Under the pieces are notes generated by a model. The model made no database searches and was not told where the DNA came from. It saw only the letters and a list, made by a program, of their open reading frames with translations. The translations under genes and the position numbers were made by a program. A DNA stretch of 38,640 bases from Erysipelotrichia bacterium (GTDB taxonomy: Bacteria > Bacillota_I > Bacilli_A > Erysipelotrichales > Erysipelotrichaceae): contig JAUNFB010000001.1 of the NCBI GenBank assembly GCA_030525245.1, positions 1 through 38,640 on the forward strand. Direction: 5' to 3'. How positions within the stretch are numbered: the first letter of the stretch is position 1; every line of letters begins with the position of its first letter. This document shows, piece by piece, positions 22,940 to 24,275 of the stretch.

Positions 22940-23584
22940 ATGTCAAAGCCAGTCATTATCGGAATTGCCGGTGGCAGTGCCAGCGGTAAAACATCAGTAG
23001 CGGAAATATTGCGTGATGCTTATGCCGGAAGCAAGTCCGTAACAATTATTCGTCAGGACGATTATTATAAAGATCAGTCGGATATGGAATTTGCGGAAAG
23101 ATTAAAAACTAATTATGATCATCCTTTTGCTTTTGACAATGATTTATTGATTAAGCAACTTGATGAGTTGATTGCCGGACATCAGATAGATAAGCCAACA
23201 TATGACTATGTCAATCATACACGAAGTCAAGTAACCGAAATAGTAAATCCAAGCGATGTTATCGTTATGGAAGGCTTGTTTGTGTTACAAGATGAAGCAA
23301 TAAGAAGTAAATTGGATATGAAAATTTACATTGATACCGATGCTGATATTCGCTTTATCCGACGGGTAAATCGTGATGTAAAGGAAAGAGGCAGAACATT
23401 GGATTCTGTTTGCGATCAATATATGTCAACCGTGCGGGTAATGCACAATGCTTTTGTTGAACCAAGCAAAAAATATGCTGATGTAATTATTCCGGAAGGA
23501 TCGCATAATGTTGTTGCTATTGATTTATTGATGACTAAAATCAGCAGCATAATAGAAAAAAATTTACAAGAGAAAAACTTATAG
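22940..23584 (+). CDS. udk: Uridine kinase
   Basis: Udk phosphorylates uridine and cytidine in pyrimidine salvage. The 214-residue protein has Walker A GGSASGKT at 11-18, RQDDYYKD, the substrate-contacting [16 protein letters not shown] and the lid region [22 protein letters not shown] lies before the ATG, 11 bases after mltG, and greA follows after ten bases. The mltG-udk-greA order is the one found in Bacillus. Confidence 0.96.
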
Positions 23585-23594
23585 GAGTGGAAAT

Positions 23595-24275
23595 ATGGAA
23601 GAAAATAAAGTAGCTTTAACTATAGAAGGCTTGAAGAAATTAGAAAATGACTATATCAGGTTATTGCATATAGAACGTTATCAAAACATAGAAGAACTTA
23701 AGGCAGCCAGAGCTCAGGGAGACTTATCTGAAAATGCCGATTATGATGCTGCCAGAGATCAACAGGGAAGAATTGAAGCAACTATTAAGCAATATGATTA
23801 TATGCTTTCAAACTTGGAACTGATTGATGCTAAAGAAACAAAGAGCAAAGATAAGTTACAAGAAGAATTGGATAATTTAAAGGAAGAAAGAATTGTCAAA
23901 ACAGAAGCCATTACCGAGGCTAAGAAAGATGGTTTAGGAAAAGAAAACGAAGCATTAAATGAAGCGGTAGATGGTTTAGCACAAGTTGAAACAAGAATAA
24001 AAATTATCGAATATCTTCTGTCGAAAACAACGGAAACCACTAAAAGCAGAGGACGTAAAGCAGTTAAATTGGGATCAACGGTTACTATTTTGACACTTGA
24101 TGAAAACGAATTGGAAACTTATACAATTGTCGGTACGGTTGAAGCTGATCCGTTAAATGGTAAGATATCAAATGAATCACCGTTGGCTAATGCTTTGATG
24201 GATCGCAAGATTGATGATGTTGTTACGGTAATGGTTCAACATCCGTATAAAGTTAAAATAAAAGAAATTAATTAA
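23595..24275 (+). CDS. greA: Transcript cleavage factor GreA with duplicated coiled coil
   Basis: GreA enters the RNA polymerase secondary channel and stimulates cleavage of backtracked RNA. The first coiled coil (about 11-75) carries the acidic tip GDLSENADY with Asp43 and Glu46, and the C-terminal FKBP-like domain is at about 158-226. Between them residues 84-146 look like a second copy of the coiled coil. A 71-residue offset matches RIEATIKQYDYMLSN to QVETRIKIIEYLLSK and GDLSEN to GLGKEN. The total of 226 equals a normal GreA (about 158) plus one unit. The second tip has lost the first Asp (Leu114) but keeps Glu117. AGGAG lies before the ATG. Confidence 0.93.
   Translation: MEENKVALTIEGLKKLENDYIRLLHIERYQNIEELKAARAQGDLSENADYDAARDQQGRIEATIKQYDYMLSNLELIDAKETKSKDKLQEELDNLKEERIVKTEAITEAKKDGLGKENEALNEAVDGLAQVETRIKIIEYLLSKTTETTKSRGRKAVKLGSTVTILTLDENELETYTIVGTVEADPLNGKISNESPLANALMDRKIDDVVTVMVQHPYKVKIKEIN

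Follow-up and report, generated by a model that had tools for sequence, protein, structure and literature searches.

Almost every GreA in the sampled phylum carries one hairpin and comprises about 158 residues. The locus described here raises the question of why an Erysipelotrichia bacterium encodes a GreA that does not match this form, having two hairpins and 226 residues, and what the additional hairpin might do. The gene was recognized from the list of open reading frames and from matches to PF03449, PF01272, and NCBIfam profiles as encoding a double-hairpin transcript cleavage factor. It occupies positions 23,595–24,275 on the forward strand of the window—the whole stretch of 38,640 nucleotides that was analysed—and all features given below lie on the same strand. 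An AGGAG ribosome-binding site visible in the sequence (23,583–23,587) overlaps the stop codon of udk, and the gene order ruvX-DUF1292-mltG-udk-greA-comEA-comEC-holA is constant across the genus as far as contigs reach. PF03449 has exactly two matches in the genome, both inside greA (23,613–23,819, 74.2 bits; 23,847–24,026, 34.5 bits) and both above the curated cut-off of 24.5 bits. The first hairpin (H1; residues 6–78, 23,610–23,828) has all parts of a GreA N-terminal hairpin, among them base strands at residues 6–8 and 74–76 assigned by DSSP to the predicted structure. The second (H2; residues 85–151, 23,847–24,047) lies in the interdomain linker and is followed by a short hinge (residues 152–154, 24,048–24,056) and by a single C-terminal RNA polymerase-binding domain (residues 155–225, 24,057–24,269) that scores 78.6 bits against PF01272 (cut-off 26.9). 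The 226-residue protein exceeds the NCBIfam GreA models NF001263 (188.4 bits, cut-off 145) and TIGR01462 (161.2 bits, cut-off 139); an identity as GreB was rejected, the corresponding NCBIfam models staying below their cut-offs (82.6 versus 188 and 67.9 versus 171). No further Gre gene was found in this genome, which is 88.9% complete, and the double-hairpin greA is the sole Gre factor seen in it. Some small genomes are known to have GreA as their only factor of this kind (PMC4598747).

An earlier note made from the DNA alone had proposed an internally duplicated GreA hairpin, and the two PF03449 matches together with shuffling tests bear this out. Residues 38–73 of H1 and 109–144 of H2 align without gaps at an offset of 71 with 12 of 36 positions identical, as the note had correctly counted (A38, G42, E46, N47, A53, D55, E61, I64, K65, Y69, L71, and S72 in H1 numbering); H2 has a one-residue deletion before this stretch, so that the offset in that part is 72. 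Taken by itself, H2 has the fold of a generic two-helix hairpin, and its homology must therefore be judged by sequence. This leaves room for the view that H2 is an unrelated coiled-coil linker resembling GreA by chance, since a lone two-helix hairpin fits many unrelated folds and the identity to H1 amounts to merely 12 of 36. The scores, however, make such a coincidence exceedingly improbable. A profile search, which could have exposed residues 84–146 as an unrelated linker, matched the GreA N-terminal family instead: isolated H2 scores 36.5 bits (E 5.5e-9) against Pfam GreA_GreB_N, above the family cut-off and far above the best unrelated coiled coil, ZapB, at 16. Against a hidden Markov model built solely from single-hairpin relatives, the H2 copies of five species score 17.5–23.2 bits, and each exceeds all of its own approximately 1,000 shuffles preserving the hydrophobic pattern (5,000 in total; top shuffle in any set, 16.3). 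When simple shuffling was used, 2 of 2,000 sequences reached or exceeded the observed H1/H2 score. With phmmer, H2 and the C-terminal domain (residues 85–212) match Gfh1 and a GreA/Gfh1 chimera as one stretch, and H1 separately matches GreA. On these sequence comparisons, H2 is homologous to the GreA hairpin.

H2 occurs in five of the seven species of the genus (G000, G001, G002, G005, and G006) and, being common to all five, is not an assembly error; an artefact of this sort was ruled out as its source. The greA copy of G002 is cut by a contig end, which leaves four complete double-hairpin copies. In the sister species G003 and G004, GreA is an ordinary 158-residue protein from which H2 is cleanly absent, the insertion point lying exactly between ...ELID, where the base strand of H1 ends, and the linker to the C-terminal domain. 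Related GreA proteins thus follow a clean present/absent pattern and not the gradual insertion that would have spoken against the reading of the earlier note. The double-hairpin protein is a real, lineage-fixed GreA variant. Overlapping surveys at the level of the family (273 genomes), the class (395), and the phylum (245), about 714 genomes in total, revealed no other gene with two hairpins at a threshold (E 0.001) that a strongly decayed hairpin would escape, and each genome that gave two matches was examined further. In four of these (G123, G173, G213, and G291) the copies sit on separate contigs, in four others (G010, G260, G021, and G270) the extra match is a solo hairpin, and in G450 it is a weak match within a 591-residue frame; a 786-residue greA frame in G033 arises from an assembly gap of N. 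In two near-complete genomes (G022 and G191, 98–99%), PF03449 had no match and no Gre factor was recognizable. No report of a two-hairpin Gre factor was seen in the available parts of the open-access literature dealing with duplication, tandem arrangement, or fusion of Gre factors.

Because the outgroups have one hairpin, H2 is a gain. In an rpoC tree, which includes just those double-hairpin species whose rpoC was found, the double-hairpin species form one clade (100/100) and the single-hairpin sisters another (100/100); the fork among these two clades and G029 is not settled by this tree. A tree of the hairpins themselves joins the H1 copies of the double-hairpin proteins to those of G003 and G004 (94/93), apart from the genera with solo hairpins, and leaves H2 unplaced on a branch of 5.08; a clade uniting H1 and H2 is compatible with the data (p-AU 0.34). 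Tandem duplication is therefore preferred over insertion of a paralogous hairpin on grounds of parsimony. The simplest history would be an in-frame duplication of the 5′ half of greA in the ancestor of the five species.

Extra GreA hairpins are also found elsewhere in the family, where two other genera have, immediately ahead of a normal greA, a hairpin that lacks the C-terminal domain. In G010 (L039:1812-2672) and G260 (L055:2450-3316), the C-terminus of uridine kinase carries this hairpin as a fusion (72.1 and 54.1 bits, respectively); both fusions keep the tip DLSEN and are followed by a normal 155-residue greA. In G021 (L040:1792-2046), a stand-alone 84-residue hairpin frame with an intact tip (80.7 bits) lies between udk and greA, and its end overlaps the greA start. 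That two other routes have also led to an additional hairpin next to greA suggests some usefulness of a spare hairpin in this family. Far from greA and near transposase-like frames, G270 (L056:4640-4900) carries a further stand-alone GreA-type hairpin of 86 residues (36 bits) with the tip KDDALDNSEYD. A derivation of H2 from the solo hairpins of other genera found no support, given the very long branch of H2 and the grouping of H1 with G003 and G004; as the H1 copies group with the single-hairpin sisters and not with those genera, the events at udk and the gain of H2 look independent.

The two hairpins of the double-hairpin protein differ markedly at their tips. In E. coli GreA, D41 and E44 contact the catalytic magnesium (PMC7527559), and their equivalents in H1, D43 and E46 within the tip QGDLSEN (23,715–23,735), are invariant in an alignment of 39 sequences. 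H1 retains all tip positions that are invariant among relatives (G42, D43, L44, E46, N47, A48, D49, Y50, D51, A53, R54, and Q57), with S45 kept in three of four copies. The H2 tip, GLGKEN (residues 113–118, 23,931–23,948), preserves Glu and Asn and has Leu in place of Asp, in agreement with the earlier description of an intact first tip and a second one lacking its Asp. H2 keeps G42; all five copies retain N47 and an acid (E/D) at position 46, and all five have lost D43 (to Leu/Val), Y50 (to Leu), R54 (to Val/Cys), and Q57 (to Leu); the tip Asp, the Tyr, and the basic patch of a catalytic Gre hairpin are thus missing from every copy. In the Gre factor of Mycobacterium tuberculosis (MtbGre), Asn47 and Tyr50 are said to be required for binding of backtracked RNA (PMC3132773). 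The reverse pattern is found at the base, where in the four complete copies H1 has changed R63 to Thr and L67 to Tyr/Asn, while H2 keeps Arg at 63 and a hydrophobic Ile/Val at 67. H2 may therefore have taken over part of the role of the base.

Despite the loss of its catalytic residues, H2 is under purifying selection, although the constraint is looser than on H1 and the C-terminal domain. In the closest pairs, dN/dS is approximately 0.08–0.21 for H2 (0.13 in the pair with least saturation, where dS is 0.47), 0.00–0.06 for H1, and 0.04–0.10 for the C-terminal domain; many other pairs are saturated at synonymous sites. Identity between the window and the other copies is 46–54% in H2 and 72–78% in H1 and the C-terminal domain. 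These figures bear on the view that H2 is a structural passenger, a spacer that the protein tolerates, retained solely as a folded hairpin and having no partner of its own. It is indeed the fastest-evolving part of the protein, its conserved positions (the turn Gly/Asn, core Leu/Ile, and E-x-R-I) are those needed for hairpin folding, and the functional motifs are kept in H1 and the C-terminal domain. Yet a dN/dS well below 1, and the persistence of H2 in frame in five species—among the four measurable, rpoC differs by up to 7.5%—with loss in none of them, make a mere passenger somewhat unlikely.

A structure predicted by AlphaFold2 from the 39-sequence alignment (mean pLDDT 90.1, pTM 0.63) finds its best fold matches in GreA, GreB, and Gfh1. 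In the model, H1 consists of helices 10–40 and 48–72 along with its base strands, H2 forms a separate antiparallel hairpin (helices 85–110 and 119–151) in the linker, and the C-terminal domain adopts the usual GreA form, joined by a hinge whose pLDDT falls below 50 at residues 151–153. The idea, also raised in the earlier note, that the second hairpin lengthens the reach of the coiled coil found no support, as the model comprises two hairpins of ordinary length and not one longer coiled coil. Strands 6–8 and 74–76, which pack a GreA hairpin onto the C-terminal domain, belong to H1 only; H2 lacks them and is not a second complete domain. In E. coli GreA, the proposed contacts of F88 in the globular domain are I75 and P5 at the hairpin base (PMC7527559). 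The equivalent of I75, I77, and its surrounding strand lie in H1, and H2 ends before them. When H2 and the C-terminal domain were modelled alone, pTM was 0.48, the hinge again fell below a pLDDT of 50, and the model deviated from GreA by an rmsd of 14 over 137–141 residues, so the orientation of H2 relative to the C-terminal domain is undefined in both models.

GreA attaches to RNA polymerase through its C-terminal domain and inserts its hairpin into the secondary channel, where the hairpin replaces the trigger loop in backtracked complexes (PMC4598747). The earlier note had also suggested that the second hairpin may compete for the channel or bind another partner. One alternative reading takes H2 as a built-in competitor that alternates with H1 in the channel, entering without cleaving, like a Gfh1 in cis, and displacing the trigger loop or blocking H1, so that one polypeptide would form a two-state switch. 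H2 has normal hairpin length and directly precedes the C-terminal domain, and the two together align to GreA models and Gfh1 without interruption. H2 also keeps one tip acid and the Asn in all five copies and retains the base residues that H1 has lost; the non-cleaving Gre-like hairpins Gfh1 and Rv3788 can inhibit or compete (PMC4598747). However, the missing base strands, the lack of any predicted fixed orientation towards the C-terminal domain, the loss of D43, Y50, R54, and Q57, and the faster evolution of H2 than of H1 speak against such competition, which appears quite unlikely. About as unlikely is the full single-chain switch, in which one docking domain would serve a cleavage hairpin and a non-cleaving competitor that take turns in the channel; if true, a single protein would both rescue and restrain transcription.

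On the side of the polymerase, the RpoC region that we take to be the β′ rim helices, by reference to E. coli β′, has no insertion, and its tip RLHKRGLLTEQEWE is identical in double- and single-hairpin species. No match for rpoC was found in the window genome at its 88.9% completeness. In the RpoC alignment, no feature matching the double-hairpin species was seen; it is the single-hairpin sisters that have insertions. RpoC of G004 (L068) and G003 (L069) carries an insertion of about 94 residues (alignment columns 967–1060) between the bridge helix and the trigger loop and two further ones of 17–18 residues, all three being missing from the double-hairpin species.

The reading that we favor, with a probability of roughly 0.55, is that of an ordinary GreA working through H1, to which H2 has been added as a non-catalytic accessory hairpin outside the channel that adjusts docking or the hinge. 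The C-terminal domain would dock on the rim of the secondary channel and H1 would bring Asp43 and Glu46 to the active site of backtracked complexes. H1 has both the catalytic and the domain-packing residues. H2, its catalysis presumably lost, has the look of a hairpin that loops out where the hinge joins H1 to the C-terminal domain. It would most likely remain outside the channel, where extra contacts with the polymerase could adjust docking or hinge geometry. With the putative rim helices the same in double- and single-hairpin species, we infer that docking has not changed and that cleavage persists, with H1 as the arm entering the channel and H2 remaining outside it. A fixed and selected hinge hairpin of this type offers a natural test of how the labor of entering and leaving the secondary channel is divided among Gre hairpin, linker, and docking domain.

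Among known systems, GreA itself (E. coli 1GRJ; NF001263/TIGR01462) is shared in the full catalytic tip of H1, the C-terminal domain, the status as sole Gre factor found, and the adjacency of greA to udk seen in relatives. The differences are the extra, apparently non-catalytic hairpin in the interdomain linker, which is about 65 residues long, the total length (226 versus about 158 residues), and the altered base of H1 helix 2. Gfh1 of Thermus and Rv3788 of M. tuberculosis resemble H2, a hairpin of the Gre type that probably does not cleave. In contrast to H2, which resides within a cleavage factor and has lost its Asp, they are separate one-hairpin proteins that keep their tip acids. The NCBIfam families PRK14720 and PRK06330 (“transcript cleavage factor/unknown domain fusion”) also represent GreA with added domains. 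While these models exceed 700 positions and have the Gre part at the end, in the protein described here the GreA hairpin itself supplies the added part, as a second copy.
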